Assembly: GCF_963675165.1 (NCBI RefSeq)
Contig: NC_087377.1
Coordinates: 8,325,122 to 8,389,121, forward strand
DNA length: 64,000 nt
Direction: 5' to 3'
DNA from: Halichondria panicea
Lineage: Eukaryota; Porifera; Demospongiae; Suberitida; Halichondriidae
Shown here: positions 20,936-61,369 of the stretch, piece by piece
How the letters are laid out: every line of letters begins with the position of its first letter
Position numbering within the stretch: the first letter of the stretch is position 1
Made by a program: the position numbers and the translations under genes
Notes under the pieces: model-generated
What the model was told of the DNA's origin: nothing
Databases searched by the model: none
What the model saw: only the letters and a program-made list of their open reading frames with translations

Positions 20936-21207
20936 CGCACCCAAATCTTCCTTTCCCATACTGATAGGAGTATTTTTAGCCCACAATTTTCCATCTTGGC
21001 GAGCTCTGTATCATCGAACACCAAAGCCAATAATTATCTTCTCAAGATGTATAGCCCCAATCCTGAGAGCTGCTAAGACACCTCAGAGTTGCTTGTTGCC
21101 CTGTACTGAATAAATCATGGGTTGCACGCATGATCAATTATTATTATCGTTTGAGTAGTTCCTATACCGGTACTCGCTCTTAATTTTTAACGAGGGAGAG
21201 TAACATA
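20936..21207. repeat. Left part of array copy 1, cut by transposon
   Basis: Begins ACCCAAATCTTCCTTTCCCA and runs to GAGGGAGAGTAACATA, where the CACTA-like element starts. The remainder of the same unit resumes at 30382 with TATCGTTTGACTTAATTGAC. Confidence 0.9.
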
Positions 21208-21240
21208 CATTGTAAAAATAAAAGTGTGCTGTGCACACTA
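21208..21240. repeat. Left terminal inverted repeat
   Basis: CATTGTAAAAATAAAAGTGT then GCTGTGCACACT. Compared with the inverted right end CACTGTAAAAAATGTAGTGT it keeps ~80% identity over ~32 bp. Confidence 0.85.
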
Positions 21241-21395
21241 AAAATGGTGTGCCAGGCCCGTCGCGTATTGCACGCTCTTTTTGGTGTGTTCAGCACACTT
21301 TTAATTTGAGTGCGTTGTACACACTTTTCATGAGTGTGCTGGGCGCACTTTTAATGGTGTGATGGGCACACTTTTAATGGTGTGCTGAGCACACT
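21225..21395. repeat. Left subterminal palindrome cluster
   Basis: At least six copies of a ~16-bp near-palindrome, GTGTGCTGTGCACACT or variants (GTGTGCTGGGCGCACTT, GTGTGATGGGCACACTT, GTGTGCTGAGCACACTC), are spaced 20-30 bp apart, mostly joined by TTTTAATG. Subterminal repeats of this type are transposase-binding sites in plant Spm/CACTA elements; the same role here is inference. Confidence 0.85.
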
Positions 21396-21699
21396 CATAT
21401 ATTTATGTTGACCCAGCCGCCCCTGTAGCCATGGATCCATCCATGCATGCATGCAAGTATAACATAAACGTTCTCACAGATAAAATTCTATAAATTGAAC
21501 AGGATAATAAGAAATAATAATAATTATATAAGATGAGAACAAGCGGATTAGAGTATATAATTATATATAACAGCATGAGTCTGCATGCATGCAGTTGACA
21601 CAAATAAATATAATAATGGTGTCGAAAGTTTAGAGATGAGTATAATTATATATATATAATAATTATACTGTATAGATAATAATACGTATAAAAAATAGT

Positions 21700-24600
21700 C
21701 TACAATGCTTTAAGCCTGGCCAAAAAATGCTTAATTGTACTAGCTTTACCAGGCTCCATTTTCAGTACAAATACTTCAAGGAAGGAATAAAACATATGAC
21801 AAGCTTTAGGATATTGAATATTAAATACATAATATGCTGCCATTAGGCAGAACGGTAAGTCACGGGGTTGGATTTGGTCCAGTATTTTGTTGTCGATGAC
21901 CAAAAAGATGATATGGTCCTCCTGGACCAACAGCAGGTACGGCTCAAGCTGACTCTTTGCCGCAATTGCTTCCTCTACATCCACATTCTGCAAGTATATA
22001 TATATATATTATACAGAGTAATATCAGTGAATGCATTAGCTATTACCTCTATAATAATTATAGAGATCAGTGTACCATGCATGACTGTGTAATGTTGCTG
22101 AGCATGTGCAGTTTCCAGCATGTGTGGGTTTCATTTAAAGCCCAAATAAAAATTAGAAGCTGGAACTAACTATAGAAGTGAACGTGAACATGTGATGGAA
22201 CAAATAAGCTGGTGCATATGACAGTGACAAAAACCACTGAAAGACAATATATAAAGTGAGTTTTGACCTAATCAACTGTATAATTTGTATAATAATAGAG
22301 TCAAGGCATAATTATAATTGTGGATAATTATCCATTCCAGTGTTTGCTTCATTTAAGCGTTTGCTATAATTATACTTAGTCTCTCAAGTAGCATTCAGTG
22401 TGCTTATTTCGATCGCAAAAATTATGTTGACTGACTGCGTGCTGTAAGTGTGAATAATATTCAAGGAACAATTACATATACCGGATTAGAGGTCGCTCTT
22501 GTATAAACATTTAGTAGCCGCTCTCAAATAGTAGCCTCAGTGAACTTACATTTCCAGCCATATTAATACTATCAGCTAGCTATATACATGTTCGTAGCTA
22601 CTATAGGTACAGGTAGCAGCTTGTTATTGCTTCACAAGCTAGGACTTCCTCATGACAAGAGTTCAAGTTTATGATGACAAACTAAAAGTTGTTGAATTAG
22701 CTATAGAGCTAATAAACGGCGCTTTTGAACAGTGGCCTTTCTCGAACTGTAGCCTCCCCTTCCAGCAAAACAAAACATTTAGTTAGTAGCCGCGGCTCCT
22801 GATCATATACGGTACATTATTTTGTTCGGTTTGCAATTGAGTACAATAGTACAATAGTGTAAAAAATATTATAGTCACAATAGTGCCGTAGGGCCGTACA
22901 ATGGGCAATGCTTTAACAGCGTATCTAGATATTTTTTGGGTGTCCATGGCTAACACCCGGTAAACTAAAGCACTGCCTTTTGGCTTCTAAGTCTGATAGA
23001 ACTGACAAAAAGAGTCTAAACTAGTAGTAGGGAACAGTAATAATTATATAAAAAGCACAATCTTTGTTAAAAGCTTTATCACCTGCAATATAATACAGCC
23101 ACTTTTGATTTAGCATAGGAAAAGCAATTGAGTGCCAGAAAATTAATTCCACTTCTGAGTGGTACACCTTTTAGAACCCCAATGTAGCACTTAAATTCTA
23201 CAAGGGTTTTTGTGTTTGTCAACTGTGAGTGAGCTATATATAGTTGGTCTGAAGTACCTACTATAAAACCTCGATTTAAGGAGATACTTTTGTTTAGAGT
23301 TTAATGTAAGTTTTAATGTACACAAAAAAAGTGATAATTATGGGCGAAATGTCTAAGTGTCGCATATTTAGAAGGTTGCCTTAAATCGAGGTTTTATATG
23401 GTACTATAATTATTATATACAGTAAGTAAGGAAGTGATAAGAAATCAAAATTCCAGGCTCTTAAACAAATAGGGCAGTTTTGGTAATTACATAAATTACA
23501 GTACTGTTGTAAGTAAGTACCTGTGTTATGTGGAGTATTTTGCTCGGGTCACACTTCGTTCTAGGGTCAGGTAGTAGTGCTGGTAGAACTGCCATAGCTG
23601 TAATCTCTGCTTCTGTGATAATAACAAATTAATCAATATTTTGATTATAAATTCAAGTATTTACCTTCAGTGTTTGAATGTGTTAGAGACAGCTCTACTG
23701 TTTTTCTGGAAGTTTCCCGCTTGGCCTGATCAATTATTCGAGGTGCAATAGCTTGCCATTCCAGTGCAACTTCCTCCCTTGCGTTTAACTTCCCTGTAAT
23801 CCTTTCTAGCTCCCTCATCAGCTGTATCAGTAATAGCGTGATTAGATTTTTAGATAATAATTATTTGTACCTCATTTCCTTGCTGTAGAAAAGGGTAGTT
23901 GCTAAAAATAGTTTCGAGGGTTTGAGATTGATTTTTCATGCCATTCCTTCTTTTTGGGAATGTCCTCGACATGAGTGTTTCCACCACTTCTGGATTTCTT
24001 TTGGTTTTTTTGTATTCTGCTTTCAGAGTTTTGGTGTGACGCTCGTGGGACACGTCGTCCTCCCCTGGGAAAAGCTCCACTTTATTCAGTATCATAGGCT
24101 TCTTAATAACCTCCTTTTGAATTGATGAAGACTCTTTTCTTTTTGTGGGTGTACGTCTCAGCTCCTTAAATCTGTTTTGAAGGCTCATAACGATTCCTCC
24201 CTGCAAAAACCTTGTTGTATCAAACCAGAAATAGAATTACATATTTACTTACGTAAGGTGTTCCAACTGGTGAGGCAAGAAACTTGTACTTCCTTACTAT
24301 GGTTTTGGCCACCATTTCGAGGTCTCTTCCTGTTGGGTATTTTTTGTACACCAAAATAGCACCTTTAATCGAGGTAATAAAGGCTGACGTTGTCTCTGCC
24401 GTCATCTTTCCTGTTTCCAGAGTTGTTTCAACGTCTGACCGATAGTGTTTTGGCAGTGGGAAGGGTTCAGGTAGAGGAATTTTGTCCTCTGAACTTTTTT
24501 GCACTCTCCTTCTCTTCGTTGGTAGCTCAAGCTGGTCGTTAACACTCGACGTACTCACATCCTGCGTAGTCGAGTCCTGGAGCAATGATGTAGTCGAGTC

Positions 24601-25199
24601 CTGCAGCAATGACGTAGTCGAGTCTGATGTTTCTTGTAAATCCTGCAGCAATGAGTCCGATGTTTCTTGTAAATCCTGCAGCAATGACGTAGTCGAGTCC
24701 TGGAGCAATGATGTAGTTGAGTCCTGCAGCAATGTAGTTGAGTCCGATGTTTCTTGGCATCCTTCCAGCCCAGTTGTGTCGACCTGTATTTATTAAATAG
24801 TTTTCCTCTAACCCCTATAATAGCAAAACTTTTATTAGCAGTTTAGCATAATAGCTAACCCAAATAGCAGTGTCACAATAGCATGCAAGAGAAAAGACTT
24901 TCCTAAAGGTTGCATGAACATAATGGTATACTTACTCTTTTTGCAGGTTGAAAGGGCACAAGAATTGCTTTTAGTTTGTCCATGTGCTTCACAGTGTCCT
25001 TCTTGTCCTCTATGTCTACAAACTCTTCCCATTCTTTGTTGTAGCATTGAAACAAAACTTTGTTTTCTTGCTGTGTTTGCTGGTCAATTTTGAACACTTT
25101 CCAAAACTCCTGTTCGAGGTACTCATAGTCCTCGTAATTTGGAATGGTGACAAGCTTCTTGCTGCTCGAGTGAGAGAGGAGTACTGTTGTTGTCTCCAT
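21700..25199 (-). CDS. SAMD3-like protein with PB1-like N-terminus, 6 exons, ~553 aa
   Basis: Exons (minus): 25199-24936, 24783-24253, 24200-23871, 23821-23665, 23612-23521 and 21987-21700. They sum to 1662 nt with phases that fit, so the gene appears intact. Exon 1 (METTTVLLSHSSSK, with EDYEYLEQEFWKVF) looks like a PB1/ubiquitin-like fold. Exon 2 opens with six or more LLQDSTTS-type repeats, then a basic KRRR motif and the family block PLPEPFPLP, TTSAFITSIKGAILVYKKYP and IVRKYKFLAS. Exon 3 (LQNRFKELRRTP) and the final exon (YVFNIQYPK, FYSFLEVFVL) complete the pattern of fish and invertebrate 'SAMD3-like' proteins. No SAM domain was seen. Role unknown. It sits downstream of the transposase on the same strand inside the element. 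Confidence 0.7.
23262..23398. mobile_element. Short inverted-repeat element in the last intron
   Basis: TATAAAACCTCGATTTAAGG and its complement CCTTAAATCGAGGTTTTATA bracket ~137 bp. It belongs to the CCGTAAGACC family by its ends. A stretch just left of it (23110-23220) matches the interior of the 13829-14399 copy in inverted orientation. It lies within the 1.5-kb last intron of the SAMD3-like gene, a MITE nested in a transposon. Confidence 0.75.
24560..24765 (-). repeat. Coding minisatellite, LLQDSTTS repeats
   Basis: Units of ~24 and ~33 bp (GTCGAGTCCTGCAGCAATGA and variants, some carrying the codons for LQETSD) repeat at least seven times inside exon 2 of the SAMD3-like gene, all in frame. 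They give a Ser/Thr/Gln-rich linker whose length could vary between copies. Confidence 0.85.
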
Positions 25200-25325
25200 A
25201 ATAATAATAATTGTTGACTGGTTGTCATGCAGAATGCAGCTGGCTGCACTTATGTATTAATTATGTAATGTAGGTACTAGTACAATCTCATGTTAAAATT
25301 GTGTAATGAATTATTGTGTAATGAA

Positions 25326-28300
25326 TTATACAAGCTGGTGCTTCAAGGGAATATAAAAATCAGTTAATAGTTCATACATTGAGAGTGGGTAGTGATCAGC
25401 TAAATTGTTTGGGGTCGAGATTGCGTACTCAGTTGGAGATGCTGCAGTGACTTTGTAAGCATGATAGTGGTTGCTGTAATTCTCGGTATGGAGTAGTTTG
25501 CACACCAAGTAGAACTCGTCAGTTAAGAAAACCAGTATGTCCTCTATCAGGCCAAATGTAGGAATTTCTTCTGATTTAATAACAACAATAGTTCCACGCT
25601 TGTAGACTATGCCATTGACTTCAATCCATGAGAGCCTGTCAAATTAAGAGTTAACTTTTTACGCATTCGTGTTTATTACACCTACCTTGTAGCAATAGTG
25701 TCGTTTGTGGCGAAGTGCAGTTGCTCCTTGACAACTGTGCTATAGTTTAGCTCGCTTGTGCGAGTCAATGTGGCTAATGGAATAAAAATGGTGGGATAGG
25801 GTTAAGGTTTCTGTTATAGGTATCTTCTGTACAACTTACTTATTCCAACTTTTGTCTCTTTATGGTAGATACTTCTACTAGAGGTGGAAGTCATCTGGTA
25901 ACACACCTGTTCTTGGTTTAGACAAGCCATAGTCTTCGCTACATTCTTAAAGCACTTTACTCTATGTGCCAGATCTTTAAAGAAGCCGTGTCGTCCCTCA
26001 AAGCGCATACACCAATAGTGAACCATCGGTCCATACCTGCTTAATAGTTATATTTGATATTTTAGCTCAACTGCTACGTTACCTTGATATCATATCAGGA
26101 TAATGTACCATGTAGTGCATTTTTGGTGTAATGTTGCACTGGTATAGATCTTTGAAGGATTGATGGTGCCAGTTAATCTCGTCTCGTAGAAAAGCAATCC
26201 AGTCTTTTGAACATATTGGTGCAAAAAGGATGTCCACTATGTTTAGTAGGCGGGTGAAGTTTTCCCAGTGTGGGTCTCCCTCGGGAATGGTTTGTCCGAG
26301 CATTAGTGGCAGCAGTCGTCCAAAACACCACATCTGTGATGCTTATATAGCAAAGAACATTTATTATTATAGAAATAATTATGTATAATAACTTGCCTAC
26401 CTGTTTGCTTTAAGGAGTGGTCATTTGCTAGAAACACTTTCTTTGCACAAGGTGTTGGCTTGTTTCTTGCATCAATTCCTTTGTATGGGAATATCTCCAT
26501 TGTCTCTTCCACCTGTGCCTGAGTTAGCAACTTTTTCGCCATAAAAGCTTTTAGCATTTGTTTCACAACTAGTGGTAGTGCCCCCTCAAGCACATCATGC
26601 ATTATATCGGGTACAAGACCTTCCGTTACGTGAAAGTAGTCTGATGTGTTCAGGATAGAATCCCTGTGCACCCCGTAGGTGGTAGCATAGTGCTCGTGCA
26701 TAATCCCAGAGAGAGTGGCACACTGTGCTGTATGTGTCTGTCTGGTCCTTGGGAGGAATTTTTCTGGCAGGAACTGCAGGTGTTTAAACTGTGATTGCAA
26801 ACCAACATTAAAACAAAACTAGTATAAGGTACTTACAGTTGTCTGCATGTCTTCATTGACTGCCATGCAATGTCTACACTTTCTCAGCGCCCTCGAAAAC
26901 TGTTTGTATCCTCCAAGGTACTGACTGGCTAAATTATCTCCAGGAACTAAAGTAATGGTCCCAAACAAGAGCTCTTCATTGCCATTGATGTTTAGGGTTA
27001 CTCCATTCTATTGTTGTGAGCAATGAAGGCATCATAATTTATAGTAAACTTACTTCTAGTTTCTTTATCTCATCCATAATATTATTGGTGTCAGTATACA
27101 GTTTGCCCCGTATTTCACTAGTACAGATGACTTTGTTATAGCCAGCAACTGAATACTTTTCTCAGTAGAACGATACCTTGGTTGCACGTTGCCCAAGCAA
27201 TAATAGAAAAATGCTGTGTAGTTCGTTTTATCAGACAGGGTGTCAAGTAACATGTATAATAAACACAATACCTAGCTTATGTTTCGTAGCTTTAGACCCA
27301 AGTGGATTGCAAACCTCTACATCATCGTAGTAGATGATTAGCTGGAGTGCTTCCGGATTGTTCATGAAAAGTGGGTGTGATTTGTAGTAGGTCCCATCGC
27401 AATAATCCCCTAGTAGGTGATCAGAGCGTTCATGTCCACGTTGTACCTAAAAGTTGTAATACTATTATTGTACAATTACATTTCGTCATAATGCTTACCT
27501 CATGCAAAATAAATTCGTCTGAAAGCAGGAGTTGCAATGACTGAAGAATTGGAATTAGATATATATAGTCATGTTTGGAGTTTGTCTCTGCTGGCCCAAC
27601 ATCCAGTTTATGCTCAACAGGCTCCTGCATTGGGTGTTAGTTATTCAATCTTATAATGCGCTAGTGAGGTATCTCAAGAGAGAACGGTGCGTAGCTATTG
27701 GTACATTATAGCTGCAAAAGTAAGAAAAAATGCTGCAATAAATTTTATAGACTTTGAACTTTGGCATCCTTTTAGCAACAATCATAGTCGATCATTTCGA
27801 TCTAGTAGCCTCATGTTTGGCATCAACACCCGCTGTGCATGTAACCTATAACATTATTATGGCCATACATGGTATATTAACTTACAATGAAACCAAAATG
27901 TGATTTGTAGTATTGATGTCGTAAGTACTCAGTGTTGAGTTCCAAGAATGGTGTTGTTAGTCGTGGCTGTTGAAATACAGCAACAAGTTCACTGTCGAAT
28001 TCAACACCCCGTTTGTGAAGTAAGCAACCTAGTTGACTCTGCAGAGACTGTGTCCTTTCTTCATAAAACATCGAAACATCTTCAATGATTCCGTTTAGTG
28101 AGGTTTTTGACACCTTGTGCTTTACTGTTGTTTTCAATAGCAATAGGGCCGATTGTCTTGTGCTATCGCACACTGGAACTGTACTTGAGTTTTCTTCTTC
28201 GTCTGCAGCAGGCTCCAGGAATTCATGGTCGTCTTCTTGTTCAATGTGTTCGTGATCAGGATTGGTGGTTGTGGGATGGAGTTCGTCACTGTGTTTGCAA

Positions 28301-28479
28301 TACAGATGTCTCCTGTAGCTTTGGAAGTTGTCATATGTTTTGGGGCATTGATTCAATCCACATGTTACATGAAAACCTGCTTCCAAAGAATGTACTTGTT
28401 TGATGTGAGTCAAAACTCTAAGTAGTGTTGTAGCAGCAAACTGATGACAGGATTGGCATAGCCATTTTCTCTCAGACAT
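25326..28479 (-). CDS. C2H2 zinc-finger CACTA-type transposase, 10 exons, frameshift in exon 4
   Basis: Exons (minus, approximate): 28479-27886, 27624-27499, 27446-27272, 27213-27054, 27007-26837, 26788-26401, 26341-26083, 26036-25840, 25773-25686 and 25635-25326. ATG at 28479 (MSERKWLC) is preferred to the in-frame TTG nine bases upstream. Residues ~5-65 hold two C2H2-like fingers (CQSCHQF...H and CPKTYDNFQSYRRH). Then follow YYDDVEVCNPLGS, YCLGNVQPRYRSTEK, GDNLASQYLGGYK, CRHCM, PDIMHDVLEG and MWCFGRLLPLM, and later HYWCMRFEGRHGFFKDLA. The DDxEVCNPLG and PDIMHDxLEG blocks parallel the D-containing motifs of CACTA transposases (Transposase_21). Exon 4 needs a 2-base change near 27080 to stay open, so this copy may be inactive. 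Confidence 0.75.
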
Positions 28480-28499
28480 CTTGAACAATAGTTTTTAAA

Positions 28500-30190
28500 A
28501 AAAAGGCAGCTGTTAATAGGTTGTAGAACAGCATGTTTTTTGCAACTCAATCGTCCATGCATACATTTTATTTCTGCCTCTGATAGTGTGTACTGTAATT
28601 CATGTCATGAACCCGCTTAGTAGTCTGTTTAATTGTGTATTCTAAGATACTTTTGTTGTTAGTAGTAGTACAGAAGGAGCATCTAACTGTACATGGGTTT
28701 GGAAATCACATCTTATGTGTCTTCCTAAACGCCGCATTGCCTTATAAGTACTGTGTGTAAGTACTGTGTGCATAAATTACAGACTGCGGTCAGCCTGTAA
28801 ATATCATTAAGAACAGATTTTGTATGTAGTGCAGCAGGAGGAGAGCTAGGTCGAGCCAGAAAGAGCCAAAAAGAAAAGGTAGGCCTTATGGATGATGGTA
28901 TACATCATGGGAGAGACTGTCATTGGTAAGGTACAGAAAACTCTGAAGAGGAGCATATCCAGTCACTTTGTACAGAGAAGTTTGCTAGACCTAGACTAAC
29001 ACATACTAGGCGTTTGTTTTTGCAGTAGAGAGTCTCACTAGGGTTCTTAGAAGACAGAGCTTACTACCAGGCCTATAGCTAGCTAGCTAGCTGCTTTTCA
29101 CTTTTATTGTGGTAAAAGTGCACCGTCAGCTCAATTAGCACTGCCCGCAGATCCACTTAGCGGTTTTGCATATAAGGTCATGCTTTGTAAACATACACGA
29201 GATGTGATTCCCGAGGTAAGACGCTCTGCTCCTTCTGTAATGTGCTCCTGGTAGTTGTGTGGGTATTTACACAATCTTGGGGTACTATCAGTTGTGTATC
29301 AATATTAGCATCTTTTTGTCCATAACACGTACAGACTTTGGATTTGTTAGCTATCCTTTTGCAGATCAAGTAAGCCCACTTTTACTTGCTGGTCTTTGTT
29401 AGGGTATTTACACAATCTTGGGGTACTATCATGATCAGTTGTGTATCAATAATTATTAGCATATTTATAACATGTACAGATCGACACAGTAGACTGCTAT
29501 ATATATACAGCTGCACAAGGACCATCTACTAATATTATGTAGCTTTGGCACCTCTACCGAGGCACACCGTGGTGCTAATAATCATCTGCTTGTACAAATG
29601 AAGTTTCAATTCAGGTTACAATTTAGGTAGCTTTGCACTAGCTAGCTAAAGCGCTACCTATTTATTAGTTTTACGCTTATCAGTAAAGAGCAGCGCCTCA
29701 GGTAATAATGAACTGCCTCCTTATTTACAGAATTATACTAATGCTTTGTAACCAAAGCAGCATGTGCTCAAGGGCATTAATTGTATATCAGTGCTTTTAC
29801 ACTCGAAAAGCAATTATTATACTCCACTTTTATCAAAATAACTGATTATCAGTTCATCATGGGTTAGTATTGAGATGTTGTTGTTTTTTATCCCCTGCAG
29901 TGGATGGCTGAAAGGAACTAAGACGTGTTGGGCTTCAAAACAGTTCATTTCTTTTTCTTTCAATCTCTTATGCACAGTCATGTTTTACATTCTCTGATCC
30001 GTGTTGATTCTGTATAAGTAGAAAACTATAATTATGATTGTAACTACATCTTGTTGATGTTATGGATTAGCATGAATAATTATACATATGTATACAAATA
30101 TCACAGGCATTGAGAAAGAGATATCAAGATCATTGCCAAATTAGGGAAAAGATCGTGATCAAAACTTCCATAAATCAATGATGTTAATTT
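28500..30190. other. Non-coding right arm of the CACTA-like element
   Basis: Between the transposase ATG and the right subterminal repeats there is ~1.7 kb with no gene. The phrase GTATTTACACAATCTTGGGG recurs at about 29263 and 29404 (a ~140-bp diverged direct duplication), and AGCTAGCTAGCTAGCT is present near 29080. The promoter of the transposase should lie here, but I see no clear TATA box. Confidence 0.5.
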
Positions 30191-30195
30191 TCATT

Positions 30196-30366
30196 CATGT
30201 GCGAGTGTGCCATGCACACTTTCTCTGCTACGCGAATAGTGTGCTACACACACTTTATTTTGTTCACACTTTTATATGGTGTGCCCAGCACACTATAAAA
30301 ATCACTCAAGTGTAGCAAGTGTGTTGGCCACACTTCAATGGCAACCATAAGTGTGCTCAGCACACT
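30196..30366. repeat. Right subterminal palindrome cluster
   Basis: Six to seven near-palindromes such as GTGTGCCATGCACACTTT, GTGTGCTACACACACTTT, GTGTGCCCAGCACACTA, GTGTGTTGGCCACACTT and GTGTGCTCAGCACACTA mirror the cluster at 21225-21395. Confidence 0.85.
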
Positions 30367-30381
30367 ACATTTTTTACAGTG
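30348..30381. repeat. Right terminal inverted repeat
   Basis: AGTGTGCTCAGCACACTACA followed by TTTTTTACAGTG, ending at the TA duplication. It pairs with 21208-21240. Confidence 0.85.
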
Positions 30382-31620
30382 TATCGTTTGACTTAATTGA
30401 CTGACTCAAATCTCTTTCGCCCAAGCTCTTTTGAGGAAGCTGCTCTGGTGATGAATGATCACATATATGGCAATTGAGGGCTGTAGTAAGTGCTGGGTGT
30501 ACGGTGGGTAAAATCTTGGGTCCAAGTATTATTGTCATGTTGTGAAATCTCCCGTTTCACTACCGCTGCTAATTTCGTTTTTAACTACCTCAAAGTGCTT
30601 GTCGAATTTCTTCATTTAAAAACTTTTCAGTGTTTTTTGCAGGTCTTCAATTGAATTGTTTGTAAAATTTTTTGAGATAAATAAACCATAAGTCATAATA
30701 ATAATTATAACAACACAGTATTATATAGAGTCAACTAATAGCTACTTATATTATTGTAAGTTATGTGTATAACTGAATAATACAATGTATGTTCGTTCTT
30801 CTTTTTATTTGGGTTTTCTCTTTTGTTGTTTCCCCTTCGTCCTCCTCTTCCTCTTTCCCCATGGCTATTATAAGTTACTCCTACGTTAAATGTTACTGAG
30901 CAATGGGATATCTATATTGAAAGACAGAACATTATAATTAGTCATGAGTAAAATCATTAGCTTACTGTATTGACTAGATGGCCTGTCTCCTCCTCTAGTT
31001 TCTCCTCCTCCTTCCCCTGGTTCAGATTTGTTTCATCATCCTTATCTTCCTTTATCTTCTTGCGCCTCACCTCTCCTCTTCCTTCTCTTTTCTTCTACTT
31101 TTCCTCTCCTCTTCATCTCTCCGCATTTTTTCTTCTATTTTCTTCTCTTCTGACTTTTTTTCTGTCCATTTGCTTTTTAGCTCCCTTGCCTCCTTTTATC
31201 TCCTCTCCCTTAAGGTCCTAGCAATATTGTAATTATTATACTGAATTCATTGATTATAAACATAACTCACTGCATCTTGATGACGACCACCTGCACCAAC
31301 ATCACCAATAGCTAAATCTTTATCTGGTAAAAGATAAATGCAATGATACTACTCTGACACACGAAACAATGAGTTATTTATACCCTCCAGGTGATCAAGC
31401 AGGTGTTCGTCGTCCTCAGATATTCAAGGAGATCTATACACATGCACACTTTCTGTACCTAAATCCATTTCAACTTGCTCTTCCTCAGTACTTGCGCTTG
31501 GTAGTGTTGCCATGACTAATGAAACAACTTCTCTACTTTTAGAACATGCAACAGGATCATCCAGTTGGACCATTTGAATTACCCACCCACTTAAGTTTAC
31601 TTAAAAAGGCGCGATTTTCC
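30382..31620. repeat. Array copy 1, right part (type A)
   Basis: Resumes exactly where 21207 was interrupted and continues to the start of copy 2. Carries type A exon sequence on the minus strand (ESVHVYRSP near 31435). Confidence 0.9.
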
Positions 31621-33144
31621 TTAACCCAAATCTTTCTTTCCCATACTGATAGGAGTATTTTTAGCCCACAATTTTCCATCTTAGCGAGCTCTGTATCATC
31701 AAACACCATAGCCAATAATTATCTTTCTCAATAATTATGTATAGCCCCAATCCTGAGAGCTGCTAAGACACTTCAGAGTTGCTTGTTGCCCTGTACTGAA
31801 TAAATCATGGGTTGCATGCATGATCAATTATTATTATCGTTTGAGTAGTTCTTATACCGGTACTCGCTCTTAATTTTTAACGAGGGAGAGTAACATAATT
31901 ATCGTTTGACTTAATTGACTGACTCAAATCTCTTTCGCCCAAGCTCTTTTGAGGAAGCTGCTCTGGTGATGAATGATCACATATATGGCAATTGAGGGAT
32001 GTAGTAAGTGCTGGGTGTACGGTGGGTAAAATCTTGGGTCCAAGTATTATTGTCATGTTGTGAAATCTCCCGTTTCACTATCGCTGTCACTACCGCTGCT
32101 AATTTCGTTTTTAACTACCTCAAAGTGCTTGTCGAATTTCTTCATTTAAAAATTTTTCAGTGTTTTTTGCAGGTCTTCAATTGAATTTTTTGAGCCATAA
32201 GTCATAATAAAAATTATAACAACACAGTATATATGGAGTCAACTAATAGCTACTTATATTATTATAAGTTATGTGTATAACTGAATAATACAATGTATGT
32301 TCGTTCTTCTTTTTATTTGGGTTTTCTCTTTTGTTGTTTCCCCTTCGTCCTCCCCTTCCTCTTCCTCTTTCCCCATGGCTATTATAAGTTACTCCTACGT
32401 TAAATGTTACTGAGCAATGGGATATCTATATTGAAAGACAGAACATTATAATTAATCATGAGTAAAATCATTAGCTTACTGTATTGACTAGATGGCCTGT
32501 CTCCTCCTCTAGTTCTCCTCCTCCTTCCCCTGGTTCATATTTGTTTCATCTTCTTGCGCCTCACCTCTTCCTCTTCCTTCTCTTTTCTTCTACTTTTCCT
32601 CTCCTCTCTCCTCTTCATCTCTCCGCTTCTTCTCTTCTGGCTTTTTTTTTGTCCATTTGCTTTTTAGCTCCCTTGCCTCCTTTTTTCTCCTCTCCCTTTC
32701 CTAGCAACATTCCAGACTGTCGTGTGTTACTTATTACCTTACCTGTCGTATAGGCTGTTGTCTATCCAATTTGTAATTATTATACTGAATTCATGATTAT
32801 AAACATAACTCACTGCATCTTGATGACGACCACCTGCACCAACATCACCAACAGCTAAATCTTTATCTGGTAAAAGATAAATGCAATGATACTACTCTGA
32901 CACACGAAACAATGAGTTATTTATACCGTCCATGTTATCAAGCAGGTGTTCTTCGTCCTCAGGATATCTATACTCCTTCACAATTTCCATTTCTTCCTCA
33001 GCACTTGTGCTTGGTAGTGTTGCCATGACTAATGAAACAACTTCTCATAACATCTACTTTTATAGAACATGCAACAGGATCATCCAGTTGGACCATTTGA
33101 ATTACCCACCCACTTAAGTTTTACTTAAAAAGGCGCAATTTTCC
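31621..33144. repeat. Array copy 2 (type B), 1524 bp
   Basis: From TTAACCCAAATCTTTCTTTC to the next occurrence. Type B exon (EYRYPEDEEHLL) at 32930-33010. Nearly identical to copy 4, 3018 bp to the right. Confidence 0.95.
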
Positions 33145-34638
33145 TTAACCCAAATCTTTCTTTCCCATACTGATAGGAGTATTTTTAGCCCACAATTTTC
33201 AATCTTGGCGAGCTCTGTATCATCGAACACCATAGCCAATAATTATCTTTCTCAAGATGTATAGCCCCAATTCTGAGAGCTGCTAAGACACTTCAGAGTT
33301 GCTTGTTGCCCTGTACTGAATAAATCATGGGTTGCATGCATGATCAATGATTATTATTGTTTGAGTAGTTCTTATACCGGTACTCGCTCTTAATTTTTAA
33401 CGAGGGAGAGTAACATATCGTTTGACTTAATTGACTGACTCAAATCTCTTTCGCCCAAGCTCTTTTGTATGGCAATTGAGGGCTGTAGTGTAGATGGGTG
33501 TACGGTGGGTAAAATCTTGGGTCCAAGTATTATTGTCATGTTGTGAAATCTCCCGTTTCACTATCGCTTTCACTACCGCTACTAATTTCGTTTTTAACTA
33601 CCTCAAAGTGCTTGTCGAATTTCTTCATTTAAAACTTTTCAGTGTTTTTTGCAGGTCTTCAATTGAATTGTTTGTAAAATTTTTTGAGTTAAATAAACCA
33701 TAAGTCATAATAATAATTATAACAACACAGTATATATAGAGTCAACTAATAGCTACTTATATTATTATAAGTTATGTGTATAACTGAATAATACAATGTA
33801 TGTTCGTTCTTCTTTTTATTTGGGTTTTCTCTTTTGTTGTTTCCCCTTCGTCCTCCCCTTCCCCTTCCTCTTTCCCCATGGCTATTATAAGTTACTCCTA
33901 CATTAAATGTTACTGAGCAATGGGATATCTATATTGAAAGACAGAACATTATAATTAGTCATGAGTAAAATCATTAGCTTGACTAGATGGCCTGTCTCCT
34001 CCTCTAGTTTCTCCTCCTCCTTCCCCTGGTTCATATTTGTTTCATCATCCTTATCTTCCTTTATCTTCTTGCGCCTCACCTCTTCCTCTTCCTTCTCTTT
34101 TCTTCTACTTTTCCTCTCCTCTTCATCTCTCCACATTTTTTCTTCTATTTTCTTCTCTTCTGACTTTTTTCTGTCCATTTGCTTTTTAGCTCCCTTGCCT
34201 CCTTTTATCTCCTCTCCCTTAAAGTCCTAGCAACATTGTAATTATTATACTGAATTCATGTTTATAAACATAACTCACTGCATCTTGATGACGACCACCT
34301 GCACCAACATCACCAACATCACCAATAGCTAAATCTTTATCTGGTAAAAGATAAATGCAATGATACTACTCTGACACACGAAACAATGAGTTATTTATAC
34401 CCTCCAGGTGATCAAGCAGGTGTTCGTCGTCCTCAGATATTTGAGGAGATCTATACACATGCACACTTTCTGTACCTAAATCCATTTCAACTTGCTCTTC
34501 CTCAGTACTTGCGCTTGGTAGTGTTGCCATGACTAATGAAACAACTTCTCTACTTTTAGAACATGCAACAGGATCATCCAGTTGGACCATTTGAATTACC
34601 CACCCACTTAAGTTTACTTAAAAAGGCGCGATTTTCCT
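33145..34638. repeat. Array copy 3 (type A), 1494 bp
   Basis: Type A exon on the minus strand at 34366-34530 and a long Lys/Glu-rich exon at 33970-34230. Nearly identical to copy 5, 3018 bp away. Confidence 0.95.
33570..34600 (-). CDS. Putative multi-exon charged protein carried by each array unit
   Basis: Representative unit. The minus strand shows exon-like blocks with GT-AG edges. Block 1 holds MATLPSASTEEEQVEMDLGT, then HVYRSPQISEDDEHLLDHLE and INNSLFRV (34540-34380). Block 2 holds DKDLAIGDVG and GAGGRHQDA (34345-34285), ending in GTGAGT. Block 3 is a Lys/Glu-rich exon with KKQMDRKKSEEKKIEEKMW and RRKEKEEEEVRRKKIKEDK (34230-33980). A Glu-rich block MGKEEE-like (33880-33800) and KKFDKHFEVVKNEISSGS-type sequence ending SETGDFTT and a stop (33630-33545) follow. 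I recognise no family. Conserved alternative versions between units argue for coding use, but a promoter and complete splice set are not proven. Confidence 0.4.
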
Positions 34639-36162
34639 TAACCCAAATCTTTCTTTCCCATACTGATAGGAGTATTTTTAGCCCACAATTTTCCATCTTG
34701 GCGAGCTCTGTATCATCAAACACCATAGCCAATAATTATCTTTCTCAAGATGTATAGCCCCAATCCTGAGAGCTGCTAAGACACTTCAGAGTTGCTTGTT
34801 GCCCTGTACTGAATAAATCATGGGTTGCATGCATGATCAATTATTATTATCGTTTGAGTAGTTCTTATACCGGTACTCGCTCTTAATTTTTAACAAGGGA
34901 GAGTAACATAATTATCGTTTGACTTAATTGACTGACTCAAATCTCTTTCGCCCAAGCTCTTTTGAGGAAGCTGCTCTGGTGATGAATGATCACATATATG
35001 GCAATTGAGGGATGTAGTAAGTGCTGGGTGTACGGTGGGTAAAATCTTGGGTCCAAGTATTATTGTCATGTTGTGAAATCTCCCGTTTCACTATCGCTGT
35101 CACTACCGCTGCTAATTTCGTTTTTAACTACCTCAAAGTGCTTGTCGAATTTCTTCATTTAAAAATTTTTCAGTGTTTTTTGCAGGTCTTCAATTGAATT
35201 TTTTGAGCCATAAGTCATAATAAAAATTATAACAACACAGTATATAATTATAGAGTCAACTAATAGCTACTTATATTATTATAAGTTATGTGTATAACTG
35301 AATAATACAATGTATGTTCGTTCTTCTTTTTATTTGGGTTTTCTCTTTTGTTGTTTCCCCTTCGTCCTCCCCTTCCTCTTCCTCTTTCCCCATGGCTATT
35401 ATAAGTTACTCCTACGTTAAATGTTACTGAGCAATGGGATATCTATATTGAAAGACAGAACATTATAATTAATCATGAGTAAAATCATTAGCTTACTGTA
35501 TTGACTAGATGGCCTGTCTCCTCCTCTAGTTCTCCTCCTCCTTCCCCTGGTTCATATTTGTTTCATCTTATTGCGCCTCACCTCTTCCTCTTCCTTCTCT
35601 TTTCTTCTACTTTTCCTCTCCTCTCTCCTCTTCATCTCTCCGCTTCTTCTCTTCTGGCTTTTTTTTTTGTCCATTTGCTTTTTAGCTCCCTTGCCTCCTT
35701 TTTTCTCCTCTCCTTTTCCTAGCAACATTCCAGACTGTCGTGTGTTACTTATTACCTTACCTGTCGTATAGGCTGTTGTCTATCCAATTTGTAATTATTA
35801 TACTGAATTCATGATTATAAACATAACTCACTGCATCTTGATGACGACCACCTGCACCAACATCACCAACAGCTAAATCTTTATCTGGTAAAAGATAAAT
35901 GCAATGATACTACTCTGACACACGAAACAATGAGTTATTTATACCGTCCATGTTATCAAGTAGGTGTTCTTCGTCCTCAGGATATCTATACTCCTTCACA
36001 ATTTCCATTTCTTCCTCAGCACTTGTGCTTGGTAGTGTTGCCATGACTAATGAAACAACTTCTCATAACATCTACTTTTATAGAACATGCAACAGGATCA
36101 TACAGTTGGACCATTTGAATTACCCACCCACTTAAGTTTTACTTAAAAAGGCGCAATTTTCC
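34639..36162. repeat. Array copy 4 (type B), 1524 bp
   Basis: Near-identical to copy 2, including the type B exon at 35950-36030 and the segment CCAGACTGTCGTGTGTTACT that type A units lack. Confidence 0.95.
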
Positions 36163-37640
36163 TTAACCCAAATCTTTCTTTCCCATACTGATAGGAGTAT
36201 TTTTAGCCCACAATTTTCAATCTTGGCGAGCTCTGTATCATCGAACACCATAGCCAATAATTATCTTTCTCAAGATGTATAGCCCCAATTCTGAGAGCTG
36301 CTAAGACACTTCAGAGTTGCTTGTTGCCCTGTACTGAATAAATCATGGGTTGCATGCATGATCAATGATTATTATTGTTTGAGTAGTTCTTATACCGGTA
36401 CTCGCTCTTAATTTTTAACGAGGGAGAGTAACATATCGTTTGACTTAATTGACTGACTCAAATCTCTTTCGCCCAAGCTCTTTTGTATGGCAATTGAGGG
36501 CTGTAGTGTAGATGGGTGTACGGTGGGTAAAATCTTGGGTCCAAGTATTATTGTCATGTTGTGAAATCTCCCGTTTCACTATCGCTGTCACTACCGCTGC
36601 TAATTTCGTTTTTAACTACCTCAAAGTGTTTGTCGAATTTCTTCATTTAAAACTTTTCAGTGTTTTTTGCAGGTCTTCAATTGAATTGTTTATAAAATTT
36701 TTTGAGTTAAATAAACCATAAGTCATAATAATAATTATAACAACACAGTATATATAGAGTCAACTAATAGCTACTTATATTATTATAAGTTATGTGTATA
36801 ACTGAATAATACAATGTATGTTCGTTCTTCTTTTTATTTGGGTTTTCTCTTTTGTTGTTTCCCCTTCGTCCTCCCCTTCCCCTTCCTCTTTCCCCATGGC
36901 TATTATAAGTTACTCCTACATTAAATGTTACTGAGCAATGGGATATCTATATTGAAAGACAGAACATTATAATTAGTCATGAGTAAAATCATTAGCTTGA
37001 CTAGATGGCCTGTCTCCTCCTCTAGTTTCTCCTCCTCCTTCCCCTGGTTCATATTTGTTTCATCATCCTTATCTTCCTTTATCTTCTTGCGCCTCACCTC
37101 TTCCTCTTCCTTCTCTTTTCTTCTACTTTTCCTCTCCTCTTCATCTCTCCACATTTTTTCTTCTATTTTCTTCTCTTCTGACTTTTTTCTGTCCATTTGC
37201 TTTTTAGCTCCCTTGCCTCCTTTTATCTCCTCTCCCTTAAAGTCCTAGCAACATTGTAATTATTATACTGAATTCATGTTTATAAACATAACTCACTGCA
37301 TCTTGATGACGACCACCTGCACCAACATCACCAATAGCTAAATCTTTATCTGGTAAAAGATAAATGCAATGATACTACTCTGGCACACGATACAATGAGT
37401 TATTTATACCCTCCAGGTGATCAAGCAGGTGTTCGTCGTCCTCAGATATTCGAGGAGATCTATACACATGCACACTTTCTGTACCTAAATCCATTTCAAC
37501 TTGCTCTTCCTCAGCACTTGCGCTTGGTAGTGTTGCCATGACTAATGAAACAACATCTACTTTTAGAACATGCAACAGGATCATCCAGTTGGACCATTTG
37601 AATTACCCACCCACTTAAGTTTTACTTAAAAAGGCACAAT
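36163..37640. repeat. Array copy 5 (type A)
   Basis: Near-identical to copy 3. The charged exon at 36921-37196 encodes the same 91 residues as 33903-34178. Its right edge has a duplicated AAAAAGGCACAATT. Confidence 0.95.
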
Positions 37641-38790
37641 TAAAAAGGCACAATTTAACCGAGCTCTGTATCATCAAACACCATAGCCAATAATTATCTT
37701 TCTCAAGATTTAGAAAATGCTTGTAGTAATACTGCAATCTGATAGGTCACTGAGAGGTCCATTATTTCACTTATGGACCTGAGGTCTTCTAAGTAGGTCT
37801 ATTATACTGATTATGCCTACAGGCAAGATGATGTCAAGATTAACTTGTATGGAACATGGCAACACCACACAGTTTATGTTGAAGTCATAGTAACGATGAT
37901 ACAGTGCATCATTAAAAATTAATTTTTTTTTAAGTTTTGCGTTCTGCAGTGCCGCTTTGCAGCTTTTATCTCTCTCTTGCAGCTACAATAGCTAGTGCTC
38001 TAGTGCAGAGCTAACTACTATGACAATAGCAACTTTTTATTTGCAATGCGTGATTCTCAAGAAACAGAAACTGCCTTCATCAATGTGAGTTTTTTTATGT
38101 AGACTAGCCAGAGCAAAGCTTTAACGTTGCTTGAGGCTTGTAGAAACTCTTGGTTTCAGAGTCTTCTTTGTGTTAATATAGCCTAGCTTGCTTAGCACTA
38201 TTCTAAACCAGTTATAGGCCTCGTCAACGGTCACTATGGAGTTTTGAGACCCTCAGGCCCTTAGTAGCACCCTCGCTACGCTCGAGATGCTACAGCCTCG
38301 GGCCTTCAGGTCTCAAAACCCCATAGAGACCTTGGACTCAGTCTATAACTATTATGTATAGCCCCAATCCTGAGAGCTGCTAAGACACTTCAGAGTTGCT
38401 TGTTGCCCTGTACTGAATAAATCATGGGTTGCATGCATGATCAATAATTATTATCGTTTGAGTAGTTCTTATACCGGTACTCGCTCTTAATTTTTAACGA
38501 GGGAGAGTAACATATCGTTTGACTTAATTGACTGACTCAAATCTCTTTCGCCCAAGCTCTTTTGAGGAAGCTGCTCTGGTGATGATCACGTATATGGCAA
38601 TTGAGGGAGTGCTGGGTGTACGGTGGGTAAAATCTTGGGTCCAAAGTATCATTGTCATGTTGTGAAATCTCCTGTTTCACTATCGCTGTCACTACCGCTG
38701 CCAATTTCGTTTTTAACTACCTCAAGTGCTTGTCGAATTTCTTCATTTAAAGACTTTTCAGTGTTTTTTGCAGGTCTTCAATTGGAAGCC
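37641..38790. repeat. Array copy 6, truncated and interrupted
   Basis: The unit starts at about 37655 (GAGCTCTGTATCATCAAACA), is interrupted at about 37709 by ~640 bp of unrelated DNA, resumes at about 38352 (TGTATAGCCCCAATCCTGAG) and is lost after CAGGTCTTCAATTG near 38780. Confidence 0.85.
38209..38352. mobile_element. ~140-bp inverted-repeat element
   Basis: AGTTATAGGCCTCGTCAACG, then CTATGGAGTTTTGAGACCCT, is matched in inverted orientation by AGGTCTCAAAACCCCATAG and CCTTGGACTCAGTCTATAAC. Arms of ~50 bp flank a short GC-rich centre, so it is a fold-back MITE within the insertion in array copy 6. Confidence 0.7.
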
Positions 38791-55934: not shown

Positions 55935-56259
55935 CTTAGGCATTGGAACGGAGAATATAATTTCAAATTCAAGCCTAGAGCTTTGTAATAGGCCATATGT
56001 GTAGTTTAGCCTGTAAAGGGGCATGTGATTGGCATGCCAGCACACCTAAGGCCAGGCACGTGTGTAAAAGTATGCCCCTTGAATAGAAATATAGTGCTAG
56101 CTATTCTGCACATACATTTAAACGTACATAGTCTCATGCCCAGCCACTTTACCTGTGGTAGGCTAATTGCAAGAACCTGCTGTTGTGGGTATAAGGCACA
56201 GGATACAAAGTATTCCTTTGGTTTTTAATATGCATATTTTTGTTGTTTGCAGTTGTTTG

Positions 56260-59200
56260 ATGGCTCAGCTCAGCTTGAATGACCGTGTGTTTGTCGCACG
56301 AAGAACTTTTACTCTCTCGCCACCGCGATCGTCTTATATACCCACAGTTGCGAAACGACCAACCTCTTACAAGTCATGGACTGAAAGTACCCTCTATAAA
56401 GCATACTTAGCACATATTGAAGATGGGCTCTCAGTACGAGATGCTGCCGAGGCATATGGAGTACCTAAGTCAACTCTTCAGGATCGCGTCAGTGGACGAG
56501 TTAAGTTTGGGGCGAGAAGTGGCCCACCAAAGCTCCTCACTGATGAGGAAGAGAATGAACTTGTTAGTTTTCTCTGTGGTTGTGCATCAATGGGCTATGC
56601 AAAATCCAAACAGGAAGTTTTGGCACTGGTTCGTAACATTGTTCAAACAAAAGGACTTCGAACTGCCGTAGTCACTGATGGGTGGTGGACCTCGTTTAAG
56701 AAGAGGCATGGTGAACTAGCTGTACGTGCTGCAGAGCCATTATCATACTCAAGGGCTGTAGCAAGTTCTCCCCAAGTAATTTCTTGCTATTATGACTTGT
56801 TGGAGCAGACGCTGACAGAGAATGATTTACTCGATTGCCCATCCCAAATCTACAACATGGACGAAACAGGCATGCCCCTCGACCCTGCACCTCCAAAAAT
56901 CATCACTGTCAGAGGTGTAAAACACCCAATTAAAATCTCAACCGGAAATAAAGCACAGCTTACATGTGTTTCAGCTGTCAGTGCAACAGGTCAAATCATT
57001 CCTCCTATGATTATATTTGACAGAATGAACATTAAAACAGCTTGGACTTATGGAGAAGTACCAGGAACTAGGTATGGAACATCAAAAAATGGATGGATTG
57101 ATAGTGTGTTGTTTGAAGACTGGTTTAAGTGCCAATTTTTGCCTAATGCATCTCCAGTGCGTCCTGTGTTGTTAATAATGGATGGCCATTCTACCCATTA
57201 CCAGCCGAGTACTGTGAGACTTGCAGCTTCGGAGCAGGTAATACTCTTCTGTCTCCCGCCGAATACAACGCATTTAACACAACCCCTTGATAAGGGCTGT
57301 TTTGGGCCACTGAAGCGTGCCTGGAGGAAGGAATGTCATAGTTATATGGCACAAAGTGGTGGAAAAATGGTGACCCGATACGAGTTTTCTCGGCTGTTCA
57401 ACAAAGCATGGTTTGCATCAATGACCCCAGCTAATGCCATAAGTGGATTTCGATGCACAGGCATAGTCCCTTTTAATCGAGAGGCAATTAGGCTACCTGT
57501 TGCTGATTTTAAGGATCGGGTTTCAAGCTTGGCACAGGAAACAGGCCTTAATTTCATACCACTCTACAACTGCAGTCCATCAAGATCTATACATCTACAT
57601 GATGCAAGTGTTGAAGAAACAGACTCTTCTGATGGTGACTCCCCTGCTAAGAGTCCTGCTAAAAACAGCTGTGTTCTACGACAGACTGCTGTTACGAAAT
57701 GTCTTTCTGCAGTGACGGTGCCTGAGTTGCACACCCAACAAGCTAAGCCAGTTGGCAGTGGACGGGTGCTAACAAGTTCTGAAAATCTGAAGATTATTAA
57801 CCAAAAGGAACAAATGAAGCTTGAGAAGGAACTTAAGAAGAAACAAGCTCAGCAGAAGAGACTTCAGAAGCAAGAAGCAAAGAAACAGAAACAGAAGCAA
57901 ACTCTCACACCCGCAAGGTTGCCCAAAGAATCGACTAACTGTGAGTCAAAGTACTGTTATGTTTGGTCGTATAATTATAGCTTATAATTATTTATGCAGC
58001 TGTTCCTGAGAGTGATGTTGTCTTCACCGACAACGAGTGGGACCGTTTTGAAACGAGGCTGCTTGAAGGCTATGATCTTGCACCAAAGGGAAGGTATAAA
58101 CTATGGCTTGAAATGTATCATCCACAAGGTGGGTTTTGTGTGTTACATGTGGAACGTTACATTCGTTCTCTAGAGTGTACACGTACTGTACACACATTTT
58201 TGTTTCATACATGTAGCTGGTGGTACCTGTAACAAACAAACTGACGAGCGTGAGTCGGATTTAGAAGTGTCTCCTCAACCAGGTACTTACATGTACAATA
58301 CACTTCATTATACACTTTACGTAATATTTGTTTCCTGCTTTTGAAGATGCTGATGATTCAGAAGGTAGAAGATCGTTCGGACCAGGTACATGTACATATT
58401 ATATGTGCTGTATTGGATTTGCGAACACAATAATGACTGGTTTTTTTTTATTACTGTAGATGATTATTGTGATCCTATTGTGGATGCCCTTTTTGATAGT
58501 TGGTGCTATTCAGGAGATGAATCTATTGGACCAGGTAAAGAATATAATATGTACTCATGATACAGCGTGTTTGATTTTCACTCTGTAATACAGTTGTGTA
58601 CCCTATAATAACATGCTGCTTTGTTCAGATCGTGAAACAGAGTCTGTGCCTGATACTACTGGCAGTTGTCTGCCGAGAGCTGGTGAGCTACAATGTAAAT
58701 GTTTGCTGTACTATAATTGTACAAAGTTACATAATTAATTTATACAGTATGTTTATTAGAAACTTTTTTATTTCAGGCTCACAGGAAGTTACTCCACCTG
58801 TTCCTGGGAACAGTCAAGGTATATCTCACACATGAATATGTGAATGAGTGTGCATACATGTACCATATACAGGTACAGTTGCATACATGATAAGCCAACA
58901 TGATTCACACAGATCCGTTATCAGTAAAGAGCTGTAAATATACTCTTAGGAGTTCAAGGAAAACTGGTAAATTATTGGGTAGTTTTTGGAAAGTTCATTT
59001 TGCGCCATTTTAGTCTCGCAGAAAGTTTCACCACCTGGTCCTGTGAACAGTACAGAGTCTGTGTCCAACAAGAAGCTTCCCCCTCTTGGGCGCCCACGGA
59101 AAACTGGTACAGTATGTTTTGTATAATTTTACTGTGAGGGGACAAACTTATAAATTTCATTTTTGCGTAGTCTCCCAGAAGGTTACTCCACCCATTAAAA

Positions 59201-61118: not shown

Positions 61119-61212
61119 AGCCGTAGGTGCACTAATGCTGATAGTGGTGATTGGGTGAAGTGTGACAATTGTGGGCAATGGTATCACTGTGAATGTGTGG
61201 GAATTGTTATAG
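61025..61212 (+). repeat. 94-bp tandem duplication in the PHD exon
   Basis: AGCCGTAGGTGCACTAATGC... to ...GGAATTGTTATAG occurs at 61025-61118 and again, apparently identical, at 61119-61212. Because 94 is not a multiple of three, the first copy ends in a stop soon after the PHD H-C pair, and the last Cys pair (FECC) in the second copy is out of frame. Confidence 0.92.
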
Positions 61213-61369
61213 AAAATGCCAAAGAAATCCGTTTTGAATGCTGTTAGATCTATTTTTTTGTGAATCATTTTGCAGTATTGTGTTATATAACTGTTCATTA
61301 GTTTTATAATTTTTCATTAGTCATGTGTTTTTCATTAGTCATGTGATGTTTGGTATGATTGGTAGAGTC

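Follow-up and report, generated by a model that had tools for sequence, protein, structure and literature searches.

A CACTA/EnSpm-superfamily transposon inserted at a TA within one unit of a tandem array in Halichondria panicea

The window analysed here is a 64,000-nt stretch of Halichondria panicea contig NC_087377.1, and genome searches were run over the assembly of 131 Mb in 39 contigs. The segment 21208-30381 of the window is very probably a cut-and-paste transposon of the CACTA/EnSpm superfamily (CMC group), belonging to the animal-type CACTG...CAGTG lineage, which entered unit 1 of a tandem array at the TA of AACATATCG and left a 2-bp duplication. We established its boundaries, its target-site duplication, the empty sites, the recurrence of its family, 2-bp duplications that extend to sister families, and subterminal palindromes at both ends. 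The interrupted unit stands beside intact sister units, so that the exact mode of insertion can be read off, and the locus preserves a clear natural trace of a single insertion.

Both junctions were read directly in the window. On the left, GAGAGTAACATA passes into CATTGTAAAAAT (longer reading of the element start, CATTGTAAAAATAAAAGTGTGC), and on the right, ATTTTTTACAGTG passes into TATCGTTTG (longer reading of the element end, GCACACTACATTTTTTACAGTG). This reading confirmed the boundaries of the original prediction, 21206-30383 with the TAs included, and gives an element of 9174 bp. Fusing both flanks with one TA rebuilt an array unit with 88.7-95.2% identity to four other units and 91.7% identity to a fifth, shorter array copy, as expected from the claim that removal of the element and one TA restores one unit. 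The bare site AACATATCG, with its single TA, was found in three neighbouring array copies (motif matches begin at 33406, 36424 and 38503). Two other copies (31886 and 34899) read AACATAATTATCG, with four extra bases (ATTA) exactly at the insertion TA, a detail absent from that prediction.

A genome search using the left 215 bp of the element revealed three further places, and a search using the right 194 bp revealed five further places nearly at full length and one short match. Two long copies lie on contig C7: C7a (3994788-4005146) is flanked by TA on both sides, and C7b (6194762-6204791) has the flanks ACGTA and TAGTA, which exclude a 3-bp duplication for this copy. A deleted copy on contig C12 (5054187-5058845, hereafter C12) has the flanks AG/TA, without a duplication. 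The left terminus is CACTG in C7a, C7b and C12 and CATTG in the window copy. All six long right ends, including that of the window, terminate in CAGTG followed by TA, and the short seventh match is followed by TG. A search with the end pattern without TA found 21 ends in the genome, compared with none for a control pattern, and TA adjoins 14 of the 21 on the outside. Because identical ends recur in the genome, chance is not a serious alternative. The ends were constant in the further copies, and the shifted ends that had been named as a possible refutation of the prediction were not found. A strict-pattern search for short double-ended copies found three. Two double-ended relatives, L024 (C4:5916950-5916999, 50 bp) and L031 (C9:5109225-5109281, 57 bp), carry the matching 2-bp flanks TA and TG, respectively. 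L034 and L035 align with 99.99% identity along 9843 of 9901 bases, so their ends could not be read.

The length of the duplication was counted on both flanks of 20 copies from four families, with the flanks entered by hand. For the short copies, a scripted search for second ends printed none, and these ends were located by eye within 150 bases. A matching 2-bp duplication was present in 16 of 19 copies, or 17 of 20 when the gene-2-only element L047 2266-5084 (duplication TA) was included, and a stricter tally omitting L022, L025 and L028, which have weak second ends, gave 15 of 17. A 2-bp match would arise by chance with a probability of 0.069 in each copy. Four of the 19 copies match at four bases too (TATA twice, TGTG twice). 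A 3-bp duplication was found by script in none of the 19 copies and by eye also not in L047, so that the consistent 3-bp duplication that would have spoken against the prediction does not occur in the 20 copies.

Among the long copies with the window's end type, the window copy, C7a and C7b have TA and C12 has no duplication. The 4 of 11 short copies that have a full TTTTACAGTG second end (L024, L027, L029 and L031) have TA, TA, TG and TG. In L022 and L028 the second end is CAGTG alone, a weak choice, and the duplications are TA and CA; in L025 it is TAGTG alone, likewise a weak choice, and the flanks do not match. Short copies with an unreadable second end (L023, L026, L030 and L032) and copies for which the right end alone was found (C10, C6:5389484 and C6:6327445) were dropped from the count. 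The sister family CACTGAAAAAACAA, represented by L013 (6083 bp, 99.8% identical to a copy on C5), has CT, AA, TG, CA and TT, together with one mismatch, TT/TA, and the family CCCTATTA (L036/L037) has TG and TT. Within the window's end type, TA makes up six of the nine matching duplications, the other three being TG or CA. Two bases are duplicated, and their sequence varies; TA is preferred and not obligatory. The TA target duplication originally described was thus borne out for the window copy by the empty sites, and for two other long copies, but TA as a rule does not hold, given TG, CA, CT, AA and TT elsewhere. The interrupted unit, taken together with the sister-family copies of this genome, sets the length of the duplication at two bases, in line with published animal elements.

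Palindromes of 15 bases, GTGTGC-N3-GCACAC with at most one mismatch, were confined to the two ends of the element (nine of nine), with none elsewhere in the 64-kb window. When up to three mismatches were allowed, 34 palindromes were found in the window, 21 of them outside the element ends; ten simulated sequences of the same dinucleotide make-up held 12-27 per window. The layout of the palindromes is that of plant CACTA subterminal repeats, which plant TNPA is reported to bind (PMC2613891). Elsewhere inside the element, about 1.3 units (233 bp) of a 180-bp unit were found at 29248-29480. This unit is tandemly amplified in three other copies, with copy numbers of 7.7 (L006 644-2024), 4.3 and 2.4 (L008 751-1531 and 2914-3341) and 7.7 (L010 2582-3959), and is a minisatellite growing within the transposon.

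The predicted transposase of the element is homologous to tnp2-type (Transposase_21) transposases, as judged from comparisons through its relatives. The window exons match the zinc-finger-like part and the 636-amino-acid (aa) frame of the sister element with E values of 8e-10, 1e-9, 5e-38, 1.5e-18, 6e-17 and 3e-5. The zinc-finger label of exon 1 derives from weak Pfam matches of the sister piece, which are below the cut-off. The 636-aa frame itself matched PF02992 (Transposase_21) with an E value of 0.012 and 15.2 bits, below the 28.6-bit cut-off; 25 of 45 rows of PF02992 matches in the same genome were above the cut-off, one of these only together with its neighbours. A profile comparison of the window/sister transposase family with four PF02992-positive open reading frames gave a probability of 98.6 and an E value of 1.2e-15 over 391 columns. 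The sister pair alone gave 95.7 and 1e-8, and the reversed control and eight column shuffles gave 0.1 or less. In the profile alignment, the positions of D, D, C(2)C, DxMHxxLEG, H(3)H and E coincide. The window and the sister both keep the motifs C(2)C, MHDxLEG, H(3)H and E; C(2)C reads CRHC in the window exons and CRTC in the sister, and H(3)H reads HYMVH and HFLLH, respectively. For the CMCT group, C(2)C and H(3-4)H are reported as motifs that lie between the second D and the last E (PMC12730594). A PDB sequence search using the transposase profile revealed no relevant match, and a scan of viral contigs using a single sister protein revealed none.

Several observations weigh against the assignment of the element as a CACTA/EnSpm transposon. 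A Pfam scan of eight window pieces found nothing significant, and the link to the superfamily runs through the relatives and the profile comparison. Three of the 20 copies lack matching flanks (C12, AG/TA; C5:3523889, CA/AT; C1:2190195, TT/TA). The predicted exons are based on homology and splice-like signals, and both the gene models and the proposed transposition mechanism are deduced from DNA sequence. TA lies on both sides of the window copy and of two other long copies, and TA duplications are reported to define ESTA (PMC12730594), so the element could instead resemble CACTA while belonging to a different group that duplicates TA (Tc1/mariner, Mirage or the fungal ESTA lineage). We consider this quite improbable, because copies with this end type and copies of the sister family also show non-TA 2-bp duplications, and because the transposase family has a strong profile match to PF02992-positive transposases. 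Mirage and ESTA both fall within the wider CMC/CMCT group and are set apart here by their description. A Tc1/mariner identity was rejected, as the TA duplication obligatory for that group is contradicted by the non-TA duplications in the short copies and the sister family.

The TAATTA of units 2 and 4 sits exactly at the TA that received the element in unit 1 and might be read as a scar left when a member of the same element family had earlier inserted at that TA and been excised. This is improbable, however, because near-identical copies differ by the change from TA to TAATTA at some 10 sites, some of them in the exons of the element and in unit 4 alone, because the count of ATAATTAT exceeds the median for 8-mers of its composition about 18-fold, and because CACTG/CAGTG ends do not supply AT. 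As TAATTA is too common elsewhere, it is better explained by a separate, frequent process. An insertion older than the array, which was then precisely lost from the other units, is extremely improbable. We found nothing in its favour; three empty sites, including that in the outer partial copy at 38354, carry no residue, and the divergence of the element (63 substitutions in 9112 alignment columns between the window copy and C7a) is younger than that of units 1 and 3 (22/1539). A CACTA/EnSpm element that entered unit 1 at the TA fits these observations best.

Since the split of units 1 and 3 is older than that of the window copy and C7a, the insertion followed at least that duplication. The differences between units 2 and 4 (8/1530) and between units 3 and 5 (11/1488) suggest that the 3-kb duplication of units 2-3 into units 4-5 is about as old as the window/C7a split, and its order relative to the insertion is not resolvable from these counts. 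Gene conversion between array units could blur this dating. The prediction that the element arrived after the array arose therefore holds with respect to the split of units 1 and 3, but the insertion is not ordered against the duplication of units 2-3 into 4-5.

The window copy is of full length but probably no longer autonomous, because its left terminus is altered and its transposase frame is shifted in exon 4. The original description as a complete CACTA-like transposon is accordingly right about its CACTA-like nature (termini, subterminal repeats, transposase homology and motifs) and its length, but not about its function. C7a lacks the 5-bp insertion in exon 4 and the 4-bp insertions in exons 1 and 7, the three changes that were examined. 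C7b has 4-bp insertions in exons 1 and 7 and is missing about 1 kb, and its exon 1 insertion is common to C10.

Near-identical copies were compared for small indels, and of the 27 four-base keys, 12 were changes from TA to TAATTA. These correspond to about 10 distinct sites, as two sites each fall under two keys; at one of them, in unit 2, the other units read CAAGATG and the change is not exact. All of the events lie in the window element family and the array (e.g., at 31886 and 34899), and C7b has TAATTA insertions at sites matching window positions 28335 and 26215. No such change was found in the pairs L013/L014, L013/L040 and L036/L037. The window holds 74 occurrences of ATAATTAT, which lie in 67 distinct contexts; the 70 8-mers composed of four A and four T have a median count of 4, and the numbers expected for ATAATTAT are 3.0 (first-order model) and 9.1 (third-order model). 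Other palindromes are also enriched in the window, and the related four-base insertions TAGCTA, GATCGA and TCGATC are present. The change from TA to TAATTA may be the scar of another mobile element or reflect a mutational process.

A second coding region (25199-21703) lies downstream of the transposase on the same strand. Its middle, c1 and C-terminal pieces match the second gene of the sister in order, with E values of 0.002, 1e-4 and 1.8e-6 in a comparison of few pieces, and a stronger match was found to an element on contig C4 that has this second gene and no transposase match in 9.9 kb. This element, L047 2266-5084, is 2.8 kb long and CACTG-ended with TA/TA flanks, and its copy of the second gene is PB1-like; its subterminal motif differs (CCCACC/GGTGGG). 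The second gene is in tandem with the transposase here and divergent in the sister, as also in L015 according to one matching piece.

For the 98-residue N-terminus of the second gene, a single-sequence structure model was poor, with a predicted local distance difference test (pLDDT) score of 57.5. The best structural matches of this low-pLDDT model were PB1 domains (best Foldseek E value 6.8e-4). In VIA-align, for which a best Z of 7-8 is common, the six rows with Z of at least 8 (8.0-8.9) were PB1 entries or the aPKC-Par6 complex, chain B of which we take to bear PB1. Ubiquitin-like and RA/FERM domains came close behind. Pfam and PDB sequence searches with this N-terminus found no PB1. The N-terminus of the sister's second gene, joined by hand over one intron, matched SAM_1 with an E value of 0.1 and 13.4 bits, below the 23-bit cut-off, and an overlapping stretch matched CAAP1 slightly better (E 0.042, 14.7 bits), below the 25-bit cut-off. 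AlphaFold predicted three helices for the middle domain of the window's second gene, with a pLDDT of 53.8, too poor to name a DNA-binding fold.

During transposition of the CACTA/EnSpm element, the transposase, with its zinc-finger-like N-terminus and D-D-E core, would cut at CACTG and CAGTG, and the cut ends would be joined to the target with a 2-bp stagger, preferably at TA. By analogy with plant TNPA, the second protein would probably gather the subterminal palindromes, and its PB1-like N-terminus would probably let it oligomerise. To our knowledge, what the second gene does in animal CACTA elements is poorly understood. We tentatively suggest that animal CACTG-type elements might carry an accessory gene with a conserved body and an exchangeable N-terminal self-association domain, PB1-like in the window element and its diverged transposase-less relative and SAM-like in the sister. 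Its product might polymerise on the subterminal palindromes and draw the element ends together in a TNPA-like manner, with protein parts of independent origin. As the support for PB1 and SAM_1 is weak, the exchangeable domains are put forward as a hypothesis; if it is true, the role of the second gene becomes testable.

The element family shares with CACTA/EnSpm transposons the termini CACT(A/G)...(T/C)AGTG (CACTG on the left in C7a, C7b and C12, and CAGTG in the six long right ends), PF02992-type transposase homology, the C(2)C and H(3-4)H motifs, and subterminal motifs reiterated at both ends. The 2-bp target-site duplication is that of animal-type CACTA elements, and the 3-bp duplication of plant CACTA elements was absent from the 20 copies. 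Animal TRC elements (SmTRC1 of Schistosoma, with relatives in Tribolium and Aedes) are described as similar in their Transposase_21-type transposase, 2-bp duplication (7 of 14 copies of SmTRC1) and empty paralogous sites, but their termini begin with CCC instead of CACTG, and the consulted parts of that report mention no second gene like that of the window element (PMC1636069). ENS1_Cis of Ciona savignyi and CMC-NA miniature inverted-repeat transposable elements, likened here by their description, share the CAC...GTG termini, the 2-bp duplication and the CMC group (PMC6004678). Spongebob_HMa of Hydra is reported to share the CACTA superfamily, the 2-bp duplication and an animal host; its CCC termini are unlike those of the window element but like those of the family CCCTATTA in the same genome (PMC4298943). 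Plant Spm/En and Tgmt* are described as having CACTA-type termini, palindrome-forming subterminal motifs and a transposase with a second protein, as here, but a 3-bp duplication, and TNPA is reported to bind their motifs, whereas the second protein of the window element is a putative binder (PMC2613891, PMC4158355). The fungal EnSpm-like ESTA shares the CMCT motifs C(2)C and H(3-4)H and the TA flanks, although TA is described as a rule in ESTA and is a preference in the window family; ESTA families are also reported to carry a TET/JBP gene, and the eight window pieces had no Pfam match, with no search aimed at TET/JBP (PMC12730594). Two-bp duplications in animal CACTA relatives are thus already published, and the element is of an ordinary kind for animals, though its accessory gene is less usual.

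Table 1. Coordinates of the element, its predicted genes and the surrounding array in the window
Feature	Position	Strand	Remarks
CACTA/EnSpm-superfamily transposon, CATTGTAAAAAT...ATTTTTTACAGTG	21208..30381		9174 bp without TA flanks; left terminus unlike CACTG of three other long copies
TA target-site duplication, left copy	21206..21207		Read directly; single TA in empty array copies
TA target-site duplication, right copy	30382..30383		Read directly; comparison with empty array copies
Left terminal inverted repeat	21206..21239	+	34 nt, 82% complementary, TA counted in
Right terminal inverted repeat	30350..30383	-	Partner of left repeat, 34 nt
Left subterminal array	21224..21394		5 palindromes GTGTGC-N3-GCACAC, at most 1 mismatch
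Right subterminal array	30205..30365		4 palindromes GTGTGC-N3-GCACAC, at most 1 mismatch
Transposase exon 1 (E1), zinc-finger-like N-terminus	27880..28485	-	tblastn with sister pieces, E 8e-10 and 1e-9
Transposase exon 2 (E2)	27500..27626	-	Putative boundaries, from splice-like signals
Transposase exon 3, first D candidate YYDDVEV	27271..27447	-	tblastn E 1.5e-18
Transposase exon 4	27050..27211	-	5-bp insertion shifts frame relative to C7a
Transposase exon 5, second D (GDNLAS) and C(2)C motif (CRHC)	26828..27007	-	
Open frame with transposase exon 6, MHDVLEG	26303..26818	-	
Transposase exon 7, H(3)H motif HYMVH	26088..26342	-	tblastn E 6e-17
Open frame with transposase exon 8, final E candidate RFEGRHGFFK	25814..26047	-	
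Transposase exon 9	25326..25643	-	tblastn E 3e-5
Second gene, N-terminal PB1-like domain	24906..25199	-	Structure model and structural matches
Second gene, conserved middle part	24223..24789	-	Contains 24-bp repeats
Second gene, conserved part c1	23853..24236	-	Matches relatives
Second gene, part c2	23648..23860	-	One short match, to L047, E 0.002
Second gene, conserved C-terminal part	21703..22008	-	Matches relatives
Array unit 1, left part, split by element	20936..21207		Alignment to other array copies
Array unit 1, right part	30384..31623		Alignment to other array copies
Array units 2 to 5, about 1.5 kb each, without element	31623..37660		TAATTA at site in units 2 and 4
Partial array copy, empty site AACATATCG	38354..38751		Alignment to other array copies

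Two further features were noted in the window. A 605-aa open frame on the plus strand (56170-57984) matched DDE_1 (E 4e-24) and HTH_psq (E 1e-6), and from this pair of domains it is presumably a pogo-type transposase. At 61025-61213, a 94-bp unit is present in two identical tandem copies.

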